64,000 nucleotides of DNA from a bacterium (GTDB taxonomy: Bacteria > Chloroflexota > Dehalococcoidia > Tepidiformales > Tepidiformaceae), in contig QEVS01000004.1 of the NCBI GenBank assembly GCA_003577245.1, forward strand, positions 124,001 to 188,000. The letters run 5' to 3'. Made by a program: the position numbers and the translations under genes. A model generated the notes under the pieces. It was not told the origin of the DNA, made no database searches, and worked only from the letters and a program-made list of their open reading frames with translations. The stretch's first letter is position 1. Every line of letters begins with the position of its first letter. Positions 43,885-51,104 of the stretch are shown here, piece by piece.

Positions 43885-43913
43885 TTGCGCCGGAAGCTGC
43901 GACTATGTATCAT
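43885..43913 (+). promoter_or_regulatory. Promoter of the metal ABC operon
   Basis: TTGCGC (43885-43890), a 17-base spacer and TATCAT (43908-43913) sit just before the 25-bp palindrome. Both elements fit sigma-70 spacing, though the -35 is weak. Confidence 0.5.
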
Positions 43914-43917
43914 TCAT

Positions 43918-43942
43918 CTTGTTGAGAGTGAGTCTCAACAAG
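43918..43942. promoter_or_regulatory. Perfect 25-bp palindrome, metalloregulator operator
   Basis: CTTGTTGAGA (43918-43927) and TCTCAACAAG (43933-43942) are exact inverted arms around GTGAG. It overlaps the transcription start and the AAGGAG ribosome site of the substrate-binding gene. The core is of the Fur/Zur kind, but MntR or another metal regulator is possible. Confidence 0.75.
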
Positions 43943-43953
43943 GAGCTGGCCGC

Positions 43954-44865
43954 TTGCTCTTCCGCCGTTGTACCGGGCTGCTCTCCATGCTCATGGGGGC
44001 CATCCTCGTCGTCCCCCTTGCTGCCGCCTGCGGCGACGATGAGGGCGGCGGCGACGGCCGCTTCGCGGTCCTGGCCACAACGGTCCAGGTGGAGGCTCTC
44101 GCTCGTGTAGTTGCCGGCGATGCCGCCAGCGTCAGATCCCTGCTCAAGCCCGGCGTGGACCCGCACGACCACGAGCTCACGGCCGGCGACCGGAAGGCGA
44201 TCAGCAAGGCCGGGGTCATCCTCCGCAACGGGATCGGGCTGGACGCCTACCTCGAGAGCGCGCTTGAGGACCGAGGGACGAAGGAGAAGACCTTCACGGT
44301 GACAACGGGCATCACCATCCGCAAGGCCGATGGTGAAGAGGACCCGCACGTCTGGCAGAATCCGCTCAACGTGAAGGTGATGGTGGAGAACATCGCCGGC
44401 GCACTGTCCGCGAAGGACCCCGCAAATGAGGCCGGGTACCGCGACCGTGCAGCGGCCTACCTGCAGCGCCTGGACGAGGTCGACCGCGAAATCGCCGCGC
44501 TCATCGAAAGTATCCCGCCTGAAAACCGGAAGATGGTGACGAACCACGACGCCTTCGGCTACTTCATCGAGAGGTACGGGCTGAGGTTTGTGGGAGCGGT
44601 AATCCCCAGTCTTTCGACGCAGGCCGAGCCCTCGGCGAAGGATATCGCCACCCTCCAGGACCTGATCAAGCGCGAGAACGTGAAGGCGATCTTCGCCGAA
44701 AGCTCGCTGGACCCGAAGATCGCTTCCCAGGTGGCGAAGGACACCGGCGTGAAGATCGTGGACGACCTTTACGGGGATTCGCTCGGCGAGCCGGGCTCGG
44801 GCGCGGAGACCGTCGACGGCATGCTGCTGGCAAACGCCCGCAAGATCGCCGAGGCACTGAGATAG
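43954..44865 (+). CDS. Zinc/manganese ABC transporter substrate-binding lipoprotein
   Basis: A 303-residue cluster-9 binding protein. A TTG start follows AAGGAG, so the signal reads into the lipobox LAAAC (about Cys 26). Metal ligands are in GVDPHDHELTAGD, EEDPHVWQNPLNV, TNHDAFGYFIERY and DDLYGDSLGE. It lacks the long His-rich loop of many ZnuA proteins, so Zn and Mn cannot be told apart. The longer start 43885 would include the operator and is rejected. It leads a three-gene operon. Confidence 0.9.
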   Translation: MLFRRCTGLLSMLMGAILVVPLAAACGDDEGGGDGRFAVLATTVQVEALARVVAGDAASVRSLLKPGVDPHDHELTAGDRKAISKAGVILRNGIGLDAYLESALEDRGTKEKTFTVTTGITIRKADGEEDPHVWQNPLNVKVMVENIAGALSAKDPANEAGYRDRAAAYLQRLDEVDREIAALIESIPPENRKMVTNHDAFGYFIERYGLRFVGAVIPSLSTQAEPSAKDIATLQDLIKRENVKAIFAESSLDPKIASQVAKDTGVKIVDDLYGDSLGEPGSGAETVDGMLLANARKIAEALR

Positions 44866-44918: not shown

Positions 44919-45617
44919 GTGGGAGCGGGTTACGGCTCGACCTTCCACCTGGGAGGCATCTCGTTTCAGGCCGGCGCCGGGAGCGTGGTAGGGCTCATCG
45001 GCCCCAACGGCGGGGGAAAGAGCACCCTCCTCAAAGCCGTGGCGGGCGTCATCCCCCTGCGCGAGGGACAGATCCGGCTCGGCGGCCGGCCGCTCCGCCG
45101 CAACGAAGGGCACATCGCCTTCGTGCCCCAGCGCGAGGAGGTGAACTGGGACTTCCCTGTTTCGGCGGGCGATGTCGTGCTCATGGGGCGTTACCGCGCC
45201 GCCGGCTGGGTGCGGCGCCCCGGCGCCGAAGACCGCCGCAAGGCCGGGGCCGCGCTGGCAAGGCTCGGACTCGAAGGGAAGGGCAACCGCCACATCAGCC
45301 AGTTTTCCGGAGGGCAGCAGCAGCGCATTTTCCTCGCCCGGGCGCTTGTGCAAGAGCCCCGGGTGGTGCTGCTCGACGAGCCCTTCACCGGGATAGACCA
45401 GGAGAACCGCGAGGTGTTGCACCAGGTCATCGCCGGGTTCGCGCGGGACGGCGTGATCGTGCTCATCGCCACCCACGACCTTGACGAGGTGGCCGCCATG
45501 ACCACCCATGTGTGCTGCCTGGCCGGGCGGTTTGTGGCATTCGGCCCGACCGCATCGACCTTCACCCCCGAAACGCTGCGCGCCACCTTCGGCGGCCAGC
45601 TGGCGGTGTTCGCCTGA
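44919..45617 (+). CDS. Zinc/manganese ABC transporter ATP-binding protein
   Basis: The ATPase shows Walker A IGPNGGGKSTLLKA, signature FSGGQQQRIFLARAL, Walker B VVLLDEPFTGIDQ and switch His ATHDLDEV. The GTG at 44919 gives 232 residues but drops the first strand. In frame upstream the bases read back to about 44865 as AADGAGEPAAGALELDG, the expected family beginning, yet no ATG, GTG or TTG is found before the previous stop; only ATA at 44862 is placed well. The true start may be rare, or a base is missing. Its TGA overlaps the permease ATG. Confidence 0.9.
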   Translation: MGAGYGSTFHLGGISFQAGAGSVVGLIGPNGGGKSTLLKAVAGVIPLREGQIRLGGRPLRRNEGHIAFVPQREEVNWDFPVSAGDVVLMGRYRAAGWVRRPGAEDRRKAGAALARLGLEGKGNRHISQFSGGQQQRIFLARALVQEPRVVLLDEPFTGIDQENREVLHQVIAGFARDGVIVLIATHDLDEVAAMTTHVCCLAGRFVAFGPTASTFTPETLRATFGGQLAVFA

Positions 45618-46522
45618 TGCTGGACTTCATCACCGAACCGCTTGGCTATCCCTTCATCCAGCGGGCACTGATCGAGATCGTGATCGTGGGCACGGTCTGC
45701 GGCCTGGTGGGGTGCTTTGTTGTACTGCGGGGGCTGGCCTTCGTTGGCGATGCGCTGGCGCACACAGTCTTCCCCGGCGTTGTGCTCTCCTACATCGCCG
45801 GGCGCAGCATCATGATCGGCGCCTTCGCCTTTGGCGCATTGACGGCAATAGGAATTGGGGTGCTGTCGCGCTCGCGGAGGGTGAGCGCCGATTCCGCCGT
45901 GGGCGTGCTGTTCGCCGCCTTCTTCGCCCTGGGTGTGGTGCTCATAAGCCGGCAGGCTGGCTTCAAGAAAGACCTTGGCTCGCTCCTCTTCGGAAACGTG
46001 CTCGGCGTCTCGCGCGAAGACGTCATCGCAACATTAATCATCGCCGTCATCGTCATCGCCGTGCTCTTCCTGCTCCTCAAGGAGTTCACGGTGGTTGCCT
46101 TCGATGCGACCATGGCCCGCTCGCTCGGTTACCCCGTATTCGCACTCGACCTGGTGCTGTTGCTGCTGGTGGCGGCAACGATCGTGGTGAGCCTGCAAAC
46201 GGTGGGCAACATCCTCATCCTGGCCCTCATCGTGACGCCACCCGCCACCGCCCGGCTCCTCACCGATCGGCTCGGCCAGATGATGGCCCTGAGCGTGGCA
46301 GCGGGCGTCCTCGCCGGCGTGGCCGGGATCTTCATCTCCTACCATGCCGACACCGCGGCGGGGGGCACCATCGTCCTCGCGGGCACAGCGCTCTTCCTGC
46401 TTGCGCTCGTCTTCGCGCCCAATCACGGGCTGCTGAGCACGTTCCTTCAGCGCCGCCGCGGCTACCACCACGTCCATCACTACCACCCGATTGACGAGGC
46501 CGCTCCCCCGGGCGGCCACTGA
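45617..46522 (+). CDS. Zinc/manganese ABC transporter permease
   Basis: A 301-residue membrane protein with eight to nine hydrophobic segments and the ABC-3 family features LRGLAFVGDALAHTVFPGV and NILILALIVTPPATARLL. A His-rich C-terminal tail (YHHVHHYH) may hold metal near the inside gate. The start is the ATG overlapping the ATPase stop (TGATG); the longer 45512 start overlaps the ATPase too much. With the binding protein and ATPase it forms a complete importer. Confidence 0.93.
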   Translation: MLDFITEPLGYPFIQRALIEIVIVGTVCGLVGCFVVLRGLAFVGDALAHTVFPGVVLSYIAGRSIMIGAFAFGALTAIGIGVLSRSRRVSADSAVGVLFAAFFALGVVLISRQAGFKKDLGSLLFGNVLGVSREDVIATLIIAVIVIAVLFLLLKEFTVVAFDATMARSLGYPVFALDLVLLLLVAATIVVSLQTVGNILILALIVTPPATARLLTDRLGQMMALSVAAGVLAGVAGIFISYHADTAAGGTIVLAGTALFLLALVFAPNHGLLSTFLQRRRGYHHVHHYHPIDEAAPPGGH

Positions 46523-46612
46523 GACAGCACACCGGAAGTTGTCGCGTGTGAGATGACGGCGCGCCGCCCACGCGGTAGAGTCGCTTACCACACACTCTGC
46601 GGGGGAACCGAA

Positions 46613-47833
46613 ATGTCCGACGGCCACGCGGTGGAGCGCAAGCTCTCCAAAGAAGAGATAGAAGAGATCCGCCAGAAGACAAAAGGGCTCATGGACGAGC
46701 TCGTCTATCCGAACGAGGTGCAGTACGAACACTGCACCGACGACGAGCGAGAGGCCCTCATCAAGAGCCTGCAGGCGAAGTCGAAAGCGGCAGGGATGTG
46801 GGCGCCCCACCTGCCCGCGGCCGCGGGCGGAATGGGCATCGGATTCATGCCCTACGTCTACATGAACGAGATCATCGGCCGGAGCTGGATGGCGCCCCGC
46901 GTCTTCGGCTCGCAGGCGCCCGATTCCGGCAACGCCGAGATCCTCTGGCAGTTCGGCACCCCGGAGCTCCAGGAGCGGTGGATGAAGCCGCTCGTGAACG
47001 GCGATATCCGCTCCTGCTTCTCGATGACCGAGCCCGAGGTTTCCGGCGCCGACCCCACCGGGCTCCGCACCACGGCTGTGCGCGATGGCGACGAGTGGGT
47101 CATTCGCGGCCACAAGTGGTTCACAAGCGGCGCCGTGGGAGCCTCGTTCGCCATCGTCATGTGCGTCACCCAGCCCGACCAGCCACCTCACAGGCGCATG
47201 AGCCAGATTGTCGTGCCCACGGACACCCCGGGCTTCCAGATCGTGCGCGAGATCCCGGTCATGGGCTCCACCGAGGGCTCGCACTGCGAAATCCGCTACG
47301 TGAACGTGCGCGTCCCCGTCACGAACCTCCTCGGCGAAGATGGCGGCGGCTTCCGCATCGCCCAGCGCCGCCTCGGCCCCGGCCGCATCCACCACTGCAT
47401 GCGCTGGCTCGGGCAGATGCAGCGCGCCTTCGAGATCATGTGCGAGTACGCACTCAAGCGTGAGGTCTACGGCAGCACCCTCGCCGAAAAGCAGACCGTG
47501 CAGAACTGGATTGCCGATTCCTACGTCCAGATCCAGGCCGCGCGCCTGCTCACCCTCAACGCCGCCGCCAAGATTGATACGGGCGACGAGGCCCGCGTCG
47601 AAATCTCCGCGATTAAGTTCTTCGGCGCCCAGGTGCTGCACGACGTGATCGACCGCGCCATCCAGGTGCACGGCGCACGCGGCGTATCGGGCGATACCCC
47701 GCTCGAAGGCATGTACCGCCTCGCCCGCGGCGCCCGCATCTACGACGGCCCCGATGAGACCCACCGGATGGTGGTTTCCCGCCGCATCCTCCAGAGTTTC
47801 AAGGCGGGTCTCGGCTGGGACTTCGGGGTCTAG
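46613..47833 (+). CDS. Acyl-CoA dehydrogenase, ACAD10/11-like
   Basis: A 406-residue dehydrogenase. Segments include WAPHLPAAAGGMGIGFMPYV, FSMTEPEVSGADPTGLRT, KWFTSGAVGASFAIVMCV and a C-terminal DGPDETHRMVVSRRIL. Its layout and the DGPDETHR ending are like the ACAD10/ACAD11 and LvaC branch, which removes phosphate from 4-phosphoacyl-CoA. An APH-type kinase gene follows 69 bases downstream on the same strand, as in that pathway. The longer start at 46553 lacks a ribosome site. Confidence 0.9.
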   Translation: MSDGHAVERKLSKEEIEEIRQKTKGLMDELVYPNEVQYEHCTDDEREALIKSLQAKSKAAGMWAPHLPAAAGGMGIGFMPYVYMNEIIGRSWMAPRVFGSQAPDSGNAEILWQFGTPELQERWMKPLVNGDIRSCFSMTEPEVSGADPTGLRTTAVRDGDEWVIRGHKWFTSGAVGASFAIVMCVTQPDQPPHRRMSQIVVPTDTPGFQIVREIPVMGSTEGSHCEIRYVNVRVPVTNLLGEDGGGFRIAQRRLGPGRIHHCMRWLGQMQRAFEIMCEYALKREVYGSTLAEKQTVQNWIADSYVQIQAARLLTLNAAAKIDTGDEARVEISAIKFFGAQVLHDVIDRAIQVHGARGVSGDTPLEGMYRLARGARIYDGPDETHRMVVSRRILQSFKAGLGWDFGV

Positions 47834-47902
47834 CCAGCAACACACGCAAGAGGCGCTGGCGCCGGCTGCCCGTCCCTGGCGCCCGCGCGCCCCGGAGGGC
47901 CC

Positions 47903-48913
47903 GTGGATGAGATCGTAGTCCTCATGGACCAGTTGAACCGGTTCCTCCGGGCGCAGCTCGGCGATGAGCGCCTGCGCGTGCTCTCAATGGAGACGACCCC
48001 CGGCCACGCCGGCCTCTCGTTCTTCTTCACCGTCCTCGCTGGCAACGAGACTCAGGAGTTCGTGCTCCGCGTGCCGCCCGCGAACGTGAAGTTCGAAGGC
48101 ACCGCCGATATCCTGCGCCAGGCGCGGGTGATCACGTCCCTCAGGGACTCGCGGGTGCCCGTGGCCGAGGTTGCCTGGGCCGGCGACGACCCGCAATGGT
48201 TCGGCCGCCCTTACATGATCGTGCCGCGCCTGCGGGGCGATTGCCTGCGAATGAGCGAGGGCGAATGGGCGGCCGGCCTGCCCGCGGAGCGCCTGCGCCC
48301 CATGGCGCAACAGGCGATGGAGGTGCTGGCGCGGCTGCACGGCCTCGACTGGCAGCAGTACGTCCCCGGCGATGGGCCGCCGCTCGACCCCACCTTCGAT
48401 ATCGAGCGCTGGGACCGTTTCTGGGAGCGCGCCGCCGAGCCGGAGATGGTGGCCCTGGGGCCCGAGGTGAAGCGCCGCCTCCTCGAACGCCTGCCGCGGG
48501 ACCCGCGCATCGGCATCTTCCACGGCGACTACCAGTGGACCAACCTCTTCTATACCGATGACCGCCTGGCCGCCGTCATCGACTGGGAGCTCTGGGGCGT
48601 GGGCGCCACGCTCAACGACCTCGGCTGGATCCTCCTCTTCAGCGACCCCGAGGCCTGGGTGCACGAAGACCGCTCCACCGCGCCCATCCCCCGGCCCGCC
48701 GAGCTGGAGGCAATGTACGCAGAGGCGCTCGGCGAGGCCCCGGGAGATGTCGCCTGGTACAGGGCGCTGGCGGCCTACAAGTTCTCCATCATCGGCGGCT
48801 TCAACCTGATGCTGCACCGCCGCGGCAAGCGCGACGACCCGCACTGGGAGGTGCTGAAGCCATCCATGCCACGCCTCATGGAACGCGCGCTCGAGGTGCT
48901 CGACGGCGCGTAA
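47903..48913 (+). CDS. APH/ChoK-type phosphotransferase next to an acyl-CoA dehydrogenase
   Basis: A 336-residue aminoglycoside-phosphotransferase-fold kinase. HGDYQWTNLFYTDD is the Brenner catalytic loop, VIDWELWGVG the metal-binding DxE/DxD segment, and the N-lobe has VLRVPPANVKFEG. Such kinases act on small hydroxyl substrates. In the human ACAD10/11 and Pseudomonas LvaA systems a kinase of this fold phosphorylates the 4-hydroxyl of acyl-CoA for a partner ACAD. Gene pairing here suggests the same. GTG start. Confidence 0.85.
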   Translation: MDEIVVLMDQLNRFLRAQLGDERLRVLSMETTPGHAGLSFFFTVLAGNETQEFVLRVPPANVKFEGTADILRQARVITSLRDSRVPVAEVAWAGDDPQWFGRPYMIVPRLRGDCLRMSEGEWAAGLPAERLRPMAQQAMEVLARLHGLDWQQYVPGDGPPLDPTFDIERWDRFWERAAEPEMVALGPEVKRRLLERLPRDPRIGIFHGDYQWTNLFYTDDRLAAVIDWELWGVGATLNDLGWILLFSDPEAWVHEDRSTAPIPRPAELEAMYAEALGEAPGDVAWYRALAAYKFSIIGGFNLMLHRRGKRDDPHWEVLKPSMPRLMERALEVLDGA

Positions 48914-49031: not shown

Positions 49032-49319
49032 TTGGGAGAGACTGTCCGTACGCATGTGGTGCTGCCCAAAGAGCTGGTCGATGAGATTGACGCGCTCGTG
49101 GGCAAGCGAAAGCGGAGCGAGTTCATCGCGGCGGGGCTGGAAGCCGCGGTGAGGCGAATGAGGCGCGCGGGATTAACGCGCGAGCTGATGGGCTCAATCC
49201 CTGCCGGCGCTGTGCCGGCCTGGGACACTCTCGAGTCGACGCTTGCCTGGCAGCGCCTGCAGCGGCCCGTTGACGACCCCTGGGATGACGCCGCCGCGCG
49301 CGCCACGGCCGCTTCGTGA
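49032..49319 (+). CDS. Ribbon-helix-helix antitoxin
   Basis: A 95-residue antitoxin. Residues 4-48 form a ribbon-helix-helix: beta strand VRTHVVLPKE, helix LVDEIDALVGKRKRSEF, then IAAGLEAAVRRMRRAG. The acidic C-terminus (DPWDDAAARATAAS) should cover the PIN toxin. TTG start five bases after GGAGG. Overlaps the toxin gene by four bases (GTGA). The repeats upstream are probable sites for autorepression. Confidence 0.85.
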   Translation: MGETVRTHVVLPKELVDEIDALVGKRKRSEFIAAGLEAAVRRMRRAGLTRELMGSIPAGAVPAWDTLESTLAWQRLQRPVDDPWDDAAARATAAS

Positions 49320-49708
49320 CCCGGTACCTGCTGGACTCGAACGAGCTGATCAACTTCGCCCGTGGACGCGAGCCGTTCGCCATCCGCATCCGCGATTTGC
49401 TCGAATCGGGTGAGGAGGTTGGGGTCTCGCCCGTGTGCGTCGCGGAGTTCCTCTCGAACCTTCCCCCGGAAAGGCGTTCCCGGTGGGTCGAGCTGTTGCT
49501 GGGCCTGACCGTCTGGCCACTCTCGTTCGAAGACGGTGTGCAGGCGGGAATCTACCGATACGAAGCAGCACGCTCAGGGCGCCCGCTGTCGACCCCGGAC
49601 ACCTTGATCGCCGCGACGGCGCACAGGGTGAACGCCATCGTTGTCACCGAAAACCTGAAGGACTTCCCTATGCCCGGCGTCCGCGTGATGAGCCTGGCCG
49701 AAGGCTAA
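49316..49708 (+). CDS. vapC: VapC-like PIN-domain toxin
   Basis: A 130-residue PIN ribonuclease with acidic residues in order: D8 in YLLDSNELINFA, E near 44 in CVAEFLSNL, D near 94 in STPDTLIAATA, and the VVTENLKDFP motif near the end. It begins with GTG in the last codons of the antitoxin gene. Likely cuts tRNA. Unlike the 28.8-kb module, its antitoxin is of the RHH rather than AbrB type, so cross-neutralisation is unlikely. Confidence 0.92.
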   Translation: MTRYLLDSNELINFARGREPFAIRIRDLLESGEEVGVSPVCVAEFLSNLPPERRSRWVELLLGLTVWPLSFEDGVQAGIYRYEAARSGRPLSTPDTLIAATAHRVNAIVVTENLKDFPMPGVRVMSLAEG

Positions 49709-49742: not shown

Positions 49743-51104
49743 ATGGGCGAGCCCCGCATTCGCTACCTGACCTCGGGTGACGGGGTGAACATCGCCTACT
49801 GGGCGGAGGGCGAGGGGCGCACCGTCATCCACATGCCCCCCATGCCGTGGAGCCACCTGCAGGTGGAGTGGGAAGGCGAACGGCAGCGCGCGTGGTACCA
49901 GGCCCTGATTGCTCGCTGCCGGCTGGTCCGCTACGACAACCGGGGAAGCGGCCTCTCCGACCGGGGTGCCGAGAACCTGGGGCTGCAGGCCCACATCGGA
50001 GACCTCACGGCGCTCGTGGAGCGGCTCGGGACCGGGCCGGTCGCGCTGATCGGCGTTTCCTTCGCGAGCCCGGTGGCAATCGCTTTCGCAGCGTCGCACC
50101 CCGAGCTCGTGTCGCACCTTGTGCTCTGGTGCGGATTCGCAAATGCCATCGATTCCCACATCCCCCAACTCGCGGCCATGGGGCCGATGTTCGAGACGGA
50201 CTGGCCGCTCGCCACCGAAACGGTCGCCCACGCGCTCGTCGCAGGGTGGGACGCGCCCGACGAAGCGCGCCATTTCGCCGCCATGATGCGAGAGGCCAGC
50301 GACAGGGAGGGCACCTCGAAGTTCTTTTCCGCCTTCGACACGTTCGACGTGACGGCCGACCTCGGGCGCATCACCTGTCCCGTGCTGGTGCTGCAACGCC
50401 GCGGCGCCCGGGTTCCCGACCCGGCGGTATCGCGAAAGCTGGCGGCCATGATTCCCGGCGCGCAGTTGACGGCGCTCGAAGGAGAGTCGGTGCTCCCCTG
50501 GGTAGGAAACACCGCCCAGCTGCTGGAAACGACAGCGGATTTCCTCGGCCTGCGGCCGGCCGAGACCGCGCCATCCGCCGCCGCGGTGGCCACGGCCGGC
50601 GCCCTGCGGACCATCCTCTTCACCGACATCGAAGGGCACACGGCGATGATGCAGCGCCTCGGCGACGCCGAGGGACGCAGTATCCTGCGCCAGCACGAGC
50701 GCATCACGCGCGAAGCGCTGCGGGAGTTCGCGGGCAGCGAGGTCAAGACCATGGGCGATGGCTTCATGGCCTCGTTCGGCTCAGCGCAACGCGCGCTGGA
50801 GTGCGCCATCGCCCTGCAGAGGCGGCTCACCGAAGCTGCTTCGCGGCTCCCCTTCGTGCTCCGCATCCGGGTGGGGCTCAACGCCGGCGAGCCAATCGCC
50901 GAGGAAGACGACCTTTTCGGCGCCTCCGTAATCGCGGCGGCGCGCATCGCCGCTCACGCCGATGGCGGAGAGATCCTCGTCTCCAACGTGGTGCGGGAGC
51001 TGGCGGCGGGCAAGGGATTCGTATTCTCAGAGCGGGGAGAGACGGTGCTGCGCGGTTTCGATGACCCCGTGCGCCTCTTCGAGCTGCGCTGGCAGGAGGG
51101 TTAG
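49743..51104 (+). CDS. Fused alpha/beta hydrolase-like and class III adenylate cyclase protein
   Basis: A 453-residue fusion. Residues 1-275 are an alpha/beta hydrolase fold with nucleophile Ser106 (GVSFAS). The acidic residue is replaced: the usual 'RRGDR' reads RRGARVPDP, and the last loop reads EGESVLPW where His is expected. So the triad looks broken and the domain may bind rather than hydrolyse ligands. Residues 285-453 are a class III cyclase with FTDIEGHT and KTMGDGFMASF (metal aspartates) and DLFGASVIAAARI. The whole is probably a cytoplasmic ligand-sensing adenylate cyclase. No cAMP receptor is adjacent. Confidence 0.85.
   Translation: MGEPRIRYLTSGDGVNIAYWAEGEGRTVIHMPPMPWSHLQVEWEGERQRAWYQALIARCRLVRYDNRGSGLSDRGAENLGLQAHIGDLTALVERLGTGPVALIGVSFASPVAIAFAASHPELVSHLVLWCGFANAIDSHIPQLAAMGPMFETDWPLATETVAHALVAGWDAPDEARHFAAMMREASDREGTSKFFSAFDTFDVTADLGRITCPVLVLQRRGARVPDPAVSRKLAAMIPGAQLTALEGESVLPWVGNTAQLLETTADFLGLRPAETAPSAAAVATAGALRTILFTDIEGHTAMMQRLGDAEGRSILRQHERITREALREFAGSEVKTMGDGFMASFGSAQRALECAIALQRRLTEAASRLPFVLRIRVGLNAGEPIAEEDDLFGASVIAAARIAAHADGGEILVSNVVRELAAGKGFVFSERGETVLRGFDDPVRLFELRWQEG

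Follow-up and report, generated by a model that had tools for sequence, protein, structure and literature searches.

The acyl-CoA dehydrogenase (ACAD) gene and the kinase gene that follows it in the window (the whole 64-kb stretch of DNA that was analyzed, positions 124001-188000 of contig C6 of a 2.16-Mb, 72% complete Tepidiformaceae (Chloroflexota) genome, G000) probably encode a split kinase/phospho-eliminase pair that brings hydroxyacyl-CoAs into beta-oxidation, in the manner of LvaA/LvaC and ACAD10/11. In the proposed pathway, the kinase would phosphorylate a hydroxyl group of the acyl-CoA with ATP, most likely at C4; the phosphate would be bound by R253, H261 and R264 of the neighboring FAD enzyme; and D378 of the same enzyme would take the alpha-proton as the phosphate is expelled, yielding a 2-enoyl-CoA by which hydroxylated acyl-CoAs would enter beta-oxidation. 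What is predicted is the reaction itself, the carbon that bears the hydroxyl group, the CoA-bound state of the substrate and the use of 4-hydroxy acids by the organism. The sequence evidence for the eliminase half is strong, and the case for the kinase half is made by its catalytic residues, its fold, its recurrent adjacency to the ACAD and its exchange with the canonical kinase. For the most part the pair fits a known kind, and its novelty lies in the lineage of the kinase (type A), which is distinct from that of the ACAD10/ACAD11 kinase and would have to hold its substrate differently.

The gene pair and its surroundings

The earlier note placed the pair at 46613-48913 and described an ACAD ending in DGPDETHR followed on the same strand by a kinase with HGDYQWTN and VIDWE, all of which the open reading frame (ORF) scan and the DNA bear out exactly (Table 1). 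The stop codons of the ACAD and the kinase are at 47831-47833 and 48911-48913, respectively (ORF scan and DNA). Pfam finds the N-terminal, middle and C-terminal domains of the ACAD, and the APH domain of the kinase (PF01636, E 3.9e-23). GGGGGA stands before the ATG at 46613, which is the better start of the ACAD, since an alternative in-frame ATG at 46553 would fall ahead of the open frame in the same-genus ortholog.

Table 1. Coordinates of the gene pair and its neighbors within the window
Feature	Position	Strand	Basis
ZnuA	43885-44865	+	Pfam
ABC ATPase	44919-45617	+	Pfam
ABC-3 permease	45512-46522	+	Pfam
ACAD of the ACAD10/11-LvaC (HCMR) subfamily, 406 aa	46613-47833	+	ORF scan, Pfam, motif alignment, tree
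Intergenic gap, 69 nt, genes unfused	47834-47902	+	DNA sequence
APH-family kinase of 336 aa (GTG start) in the divergent type A clade	47903-48913	+	Pfam, trees, AlphaFold
PIN-domain protein (downstream of kinase)	49316-49708		Pfam PIN
Alpha/beta-hydrolase region joined to adenylate/guanylate cyclase catalytic domain, one protein (downstream of kinase)	49743-51104		

The second genome of the genus (G037) keeps the pair, with 98% identity of the ACAD (dN 0.0097, dS 0.61 by NG86) and 91% identity of the kinase (dN 0.055, dS 0.51 by NG86), and by these values both genes are under purifying selection. Because the pair is kept in the genus under purifying selection and its arrangement recurs across the family, it is not a product of chance. 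In relatives, the spacing from ACAD to kinase is approximately 50-150 nt between matches. The upstream ZnuA, ABC ATPase and ABC-3 permease genes are syntenic with the pair in about eight related loci, but despite this conservation they probably lie outside the pathway. Next to the pair, ORFs and Pfam within the 64-kb window show neither a CoA ligase nor an LvaD-like gene.

Directly 3' of the kinase, a short ORF-like stretch is followed by the PIN-domain gene (49033-49708 together); on the basis of the Pfam PIN match, they are probably a VapBC-type toxin-antitoxin pair.

The dehydrogenase belongs to the ACAD10/11-LvaC subfamily

In phmmer searches, the nearest PDB matches of the window ACAD are structures of ACAD11 (8v3u, 2.1e-88; 8v3v, 1e-87; 2wbi, 1.3e-86), followed by 4hr3 (1.5e-81), and the best ordinary ACAD scores 2.2e-54. 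By alignment, R253, R258, H261, C262, M263, R264 and D378 of the window ACAD correspond to R626, R631, H634, C, M, R637 and D753 of mouse ACAD11, such that all 7/7 motif positions are identical to ACAD11. The phosphate-binding set R253, H261 and R264 of the HCMR helix is present (RLGPGRIHHCMR), and D378 stands at the position of D753, where ordinary ACADs mostly carry Glu. PMC12440821 assigns the binding of the 4-phosphate in mouse ACAD11 to R626, H634 and R637 (by modeling), reports that their replacement ablates the ACAD step, and names D753 as the catalytic base; according to PMC11342911, a conserved Pro (Pro463 of human ACAD11) widens the cavity.

ACAD genes were located at 27 places in the window's own genome, and 23 of these were tabulated for the motif, excluding L025, L027, L028 and L029 (internal stop or fragments). 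Two of the 23 carry the full motif, one being the window ACAD and the other its paralog L004 (56% identical), and 21/23 lack it, with gaps in the table for L026 at 6/7 columns and for L012, L014-L018, L020 and L021 at two or more columns. In a maximum-likelihood tree of 58 rows (without L026, L012 and P. putida LvaC), a branch with 100/100 support holds 38 motif-bearing rows, including the window ACAD, its orthologs, human ACAD11, 4hr3 and sequences of Burkholderia, Deinococcus and others, and leaves outside it 19 ordinary ACADs of the same genome and the 5ol2 chain. No NCBIfam model matches either protein of the pair above its cut-off; 22 models of the ACAD superfamily match the ACAD, all of them below. 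The ranking of PDB matches, the complete set of residues and the 100/100 grouping together place the ACAD clearly in the ACAD10/11-LvaC subfamily. The earlier note had called the dehydrogenase half ACAD10/11-like, which the PDB ranking, motif table and tree confirm, and the grouping with ordinary enzymes that it named as grounds for refutation was looked for and did not appear: a 100/100 branch separates the ACAD from the 19 ordinary ACADs encoded in the same genome.

The second HCMR ACAD of this genome (56% identical; RLGPGRIFHCMR) is located at G000:C6:82946-84115 (L036:8938-10431, minus strand) and is also found in G037 (L190). No kinase adjoins it, and the ORF that follows it on its strand resembles an alpha/beta-hydrolase; an APH gene approximately 2 kb away was rejected as its partner, being separated from it by ORFs of opposite orientation and having the look of a generic APH. 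An HCMN variant of the subfamily, reading RLGAGR[VI][YF]HCMN (L227, L229, L231-L237, L239, L245), keeps R626 and H634 and has Asn in place of R637; HCMN ACADs occur in 11 of the 18 non-Chloroflexota genomes that have both a type A kinase and a subfamily-like ACAD, and could possibly act on another phosphate or substrate.

The kinase has the catalytic residues of its family but belongs to a separate clade

The landmarks of the window kinase are R72-Q73 of helix alpha-C, HGD209-Q211-N214, D227-W-E229, G234-A-T and a C-terminal LHRRGKR (304-310). D209, N214 and D227-W-E229 correspond to the catalytic Asp (D220), the Asn (N225) and the metal-binding DxE, which are constant in 26/26 type A rows and in all rows aligned, and from HGD, N and DxE the kinase looks active. 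In counts that depend on the rows chosen by the analyst, the column of the CoA-contacting R176 holds Arg in 28/28 canonical and type B rows and in 0/29 rows of type A and its sister type A-prime, and the alpha-C residue is Glu in 28/28 of the former and Gln in 29/29 of the latter. The Arg before the alpha-C Glu, number 84 by the count of the PDB chain, is kept (R72) in every row except the pair formed by 25-hydroxy-steroid kinase and Rv3168; the published description has R86 as the neighbor of the alpha-C Glu. Type A kinases are marked by the motif HGD[YF]QW[TSAQ]N with G[APST][TVM] and by an invariant C-terminal H-R-x-G-K-R; type A-prime keeps HGD[YF]RLGN with a GDP motif.

As a single sequence the kinase has weak matches (3dxp, 2.3e-15; 9o56, 1.1e-13; ACAD11, 3.6e-8), and a 41-row profile gives 9o56 at 5e-23, 3dxp at 1.8e-22 and ACAD11 at 2.8e-19. 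Two trees were made, one of 58 rows and one of 48 rows (12 dropped, including L002, and two added), with P. putida LvaA absent from both. In both trees the window kinase is inside the type A clade (100/99), the sister of which is A-prime from Actinobacterial plasmids, with a joint A plus A-prime branch at 98/92 in the 48-row tree. The other side (97/91) is the canonical clade, which comprises ACAD11, 3dxp, 9o56, kinases of Burkholderia, Deinococcus and Gemmatirosa, and the Chloroflexota type B and type C kinases, and which excludes the window kinase; 25-hydroxy-steroid kinase (9fsg) and Rv3168 (3ats) form a branch of their own (100/99), also without the window kinase. Among the matches listed, the nearest relatives outside the genus are Rokubacterial kinases (L099-L101; 69-71% identity), and because these are closer than other kinases of the organism's own family, horizontal transfer of the kinase of this genus is suggested by sequence.

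An AlphaFold model of the kinase (pLDDT 92) has the APH fold, and its top three structural matches, which are effectively tied, are 25-hydroxy-steroid kinase (Z 28.4, rmsd 3.5, 328 aligned), Rv3168 (Z 27.7, rmsd 3.4, 322 aligned) and 3dxp (Z 27.6, rmsd 3.3, 314 aligned). The ACAD11 kinase and 9o56 are absent among the 50 structural matches listed, an absence that excludes nothing. Identification as a resistance APH was rejected, as the NCBIfam APH(3') model scores 25.9 bits versus a cut-off of 205 and the fold is nearest to APH-type hydroxyl kinases.

Because of its separate clade and its loss of R176, the kinase should not be filed as ACAD10/11-type, although it may work like one. Thus, of the ACAD10/11-like pair claimed in the earlier note, the architecture and the ACAD stand, but the kinase lies outside the ACAD11 clade and lacks two residues that are constant there; the phylogenetic placement that the note had called for puts the ACAD with ACAD11 and the kinase in the type A clade, in trees without LvaA and LvaC.

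One dehydrogenase is paired with two kinase lineages in the family

Searches of 38 family genomes, made with the ACAD and with the kinase, found an ortholog of the ACAD (65-100% identity) in 33. A type A kinase is beside the ortholog on the same strand in 16/33 genomes (G000, G037, G003, G004, G005, G007, G008, G012, G016, G019 and G022-G027; 0.8 kb from it in G008), a type B (canonical) kinase is beside it in 8/33 (G029-G036, all of one genus), and no kinase is adjacent in 9/33. Two kinase lineages are thus swapped in place beside one ACAD, and the partner is exchangeable. The genus with type B beside the ACAD has its type A kinase elsewhere (L041-L048), with no ACAD within 1.5 kb and, at L041, a CoA-transferase-like ORF after it. 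The window's genus, as represented by G037, has a type B kinase elsewhere, in a strand run shared with an AMP-binding ligase (L188); none turned up in the window genome, which is 72% complete. Across the family the ACAD is the more conserved of the two, with identity to the window proteins of about 75-98% for the ACAD and 48-91% for the type A partner.

Wider distribution of type A and A-prime kinases

A search for related loci in named genomes gave 196 places, of which the best 80, all with type A kinases, comprise 25 Chloroflexota loci and 55 others. An ACAD is just upstream in 13/25 of these Chloroflexota loci, 12 of the ortholog type and one of another subclade (L148, Dehalococcoidia), and the pair is present in the cultured Tepidiforma flava (L144). 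Among the 55 others of the best 80, some of which are cut by contig ends, none (0/55) has an ACAD within up to 4 kb, and the idea that type A kinases accompany ACADs everywhere is therefore false outside Chloroflexota. Within the same 55 loci, an acyl-CoA ligase (AMP-binding) is upstream in 22, a crotonase is near 12 and an SDR is near 11, one representative of each type of neighbor having been confirmed by Pfam. A subfamily-like ACAD is encoded elsewhere in the genome in 18 of 20 non-Chloroflexota type A genomes sampled from the 55 loci.

Other neighbors at these 55 loci (best 80 of 196) are a GMC oxidoreductase after the kinase in 14, one of them confirmed by Pfam, and a conserved protein of approximately 190 aa downstream in nine; loci with these neighbors include L115, L123, L124, L132, L134, L137, L138 and L139.

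The A-prime kinases of Streptomyces and Rhodococcus plasmids are beside or near ACADs that read HYAMR or HAMR. At L257/L259 and L258 the A-prime kinase and ACAD are in clusters with CoA ligase and SDRs, the cluster of Rhodococcus BH4 also includes a thiolase and a hydratase, and at L187 the A-prime kinase directly precedes the ACAD. Canonical kinases form split pairs with ACADs in Burkholderia, Deinococcus, Gemmatirosa, Rhodococcus, Bosea, Sphingobium and Alteromonas, and the split arrangement is thus the common bacterial form. The earlier note was right that the window has a two-gene version, but this is no peculiarity; it is the ordinary state in bacteria (LvaA/LvaC, Burkholderia, Deinococcus, Rhodococcus).

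Comparison with known systems

The human enzymes ACAD10 and ACAD11 strip a hydroxyl group from unusual fatty acids after phosphorylating it. Mammalian ACAD10 and ACAD11 (8v3u, 8v3v, 2wbi; PMC12440821 and PMC11342911) resemble the window pair in the catalytic Asp, R626, H634, R637 and HCMR, and in having an APH-superfamily kinase linked to an ACAD, but the window has two separate genes with the ACAD first, no HAD domain, and a kinase of another clade, in which Gln replaces the alpha-C Glu and R176 has no counterpart. A fused polypeptide like ACAD10/11 is excluded by the stop codon and the 69-nt gap.

As described in PMC11342911, PMC12440821 and PMC6692424, the kinase LvaA and the HCMR ACAD LvaC of P. 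putida are likewise encoded by two genes near one another; however, lvaB, lvaD and lvaE stand beside the lva pair, whereas no lvaD or lvaE was seen at the window pair, the neighbors of which are ZnuABC-type genes upstream and PIN-domain and cyclase/hydrolase genes downstream. The pair of Burkholderia arboris (L178) also consists of separate kinase and HCMR ACAD genes, but in the order kinase-SDR-SDR-ACAD and with a canonical kinase; in PMC11342911, B. pseudomallei orthologs replaced ACAD10 domains.

The 25-hydroxy-steroid kinase (9fsg, 9ft5) has in common with the window kinase the APH-type fold, the alpha-C Gln and an about equal best structural match, but it occupies a separate branch (100/99) and acts on a steroid alcohol rather than a CoA ester. 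Phosphorylation of the alcohol by this enzyme initiates an ATP-dependent dehydration (PMC8449060), and because so similar a structure activates a steroid alcohol, a substrate other than a 4-hydroxy compound is conceivable for the window kinase. The A-prime kinases (L187, L257, L258) are the sister clade, with alpha-C Gln, no R176 equivalent and a place beside or near HYAMR or HAMR ACADs, and differ in keeping the HGD[YF]RLGN and GDP motifs that type A has changed.

Alternative explanations

Reading the two genes as a functional pair is favored by the fact that the A/A-prime lineage pairs with ACADs of several subclades (L148 and the HYAMR/HAMR forms). Counting against it are the position of the kinase outside the canonical clade without R176 and the alpha-C Glu, the Gln and equal structural closeness of a 25-hydroxy-steroid kinase that acts on a non-CoA alcohol, the lack of a nearby ACAD at 0/55 non-Chloroflexota type A loci (best 80 of 196), and the lack of an adjoining CoA ligase or LvaD-like gene in the window. 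A rather doubtful alternative is that the ACAD does eliminate phosphate from 4-phosphoacyl-CoA while the type A kinase is directed at some other hydroxyl group (at another carbon, or of a tertiary, branched or non-CoA alcohol), with a canonical kinase elsewhere serving 4-hydroxyacyl-CoA. The residue differences at R176 and the alpha-C Glu are consistent with such a kinase, as are the type B kinase elsewhere in the genus (G037, L188) with an AMP-binding ligase in its strand run, the pairing of the same ACAD with type B in eight sister-genus genomes, and, outside Chloroflexota (best 80 of 196), the lack of nearby ACADs (0/55) and the GMC oxidoreductase after type A in 14/55. However, type A adjoins the ACAD in 16/33 genomes, A and A-prime are repeatedly paired with motif-bearing ACADs of different subclades, and no type B kinase was detected in the window genome (72% complete).

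That the genes are adjacent without functional coupling, with the ACAD using a kinase elsewhere and the APH engaged in unrelated phosphorylation of antibiotics or small molecules, is improbable: APH-family genes are common (six places in the window genome) and in 9/33 family genomes the ACAD stands without a kinase next to it, but adjacency in 24/33 together with a swap of types in one slot is hard to obtain by chance, and both fold and sequence are near kinases of metabolite alcohols rather than resistance APHs. The complete HCMR/R626/Asp set and the 100/100 separation from ordinary ACADs make it least probable that the ACAD is simply a FAD/ETF acyl-CoA dehydrogenase of the ordinary sort with a likeness to ACAD11, even though every ACAD domain is present and 22 NCBIfam models of the superfamily match below their cut-offs.

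With the two genes taken as a split kinase/phospho-eliminase pair, a tentative extension is that types A and A-prime constitute a second, separately specialized lineage of hydroxyacyl-CoA kinases that replaces the canonical kinase beside the same ACAD, and that differs either in its route of CoA binding, perhaps through the C-terminal H-R-x-G-K-R stretch of type A, or in the position, branching or configuration of the hydroxyl group.

Implications

The mechanism of ACAD10/11 was published only in 2024-2025, and a literature search found no paper on a pair of ACAD and aminoglycoside phosphotransferase genes in Chloroflexota. According to PMC10284905, Tepidiforma uses volatile fatty acids and hydrolyzes Tween; 'levulin' and 'lactone' are absent from the text of that paper. 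The presence of the pair in cultured T. flava makes the proposal testable, and separate bacterial kinases could help to engineer the use of levulinate or lactones. The association of the same eliminase with a different kinase lineage would mean either that R176 and the alpha-C Glu are dispensable for the partnership or that new hydroxyacyl substrates are involved. If types A and A-prime are indeed a second hydroxyacyl-CoA kinase lineage, the strategy of phosphorylation followed by elimination would be modular, with one eliminase fed by exchangeable kinases.
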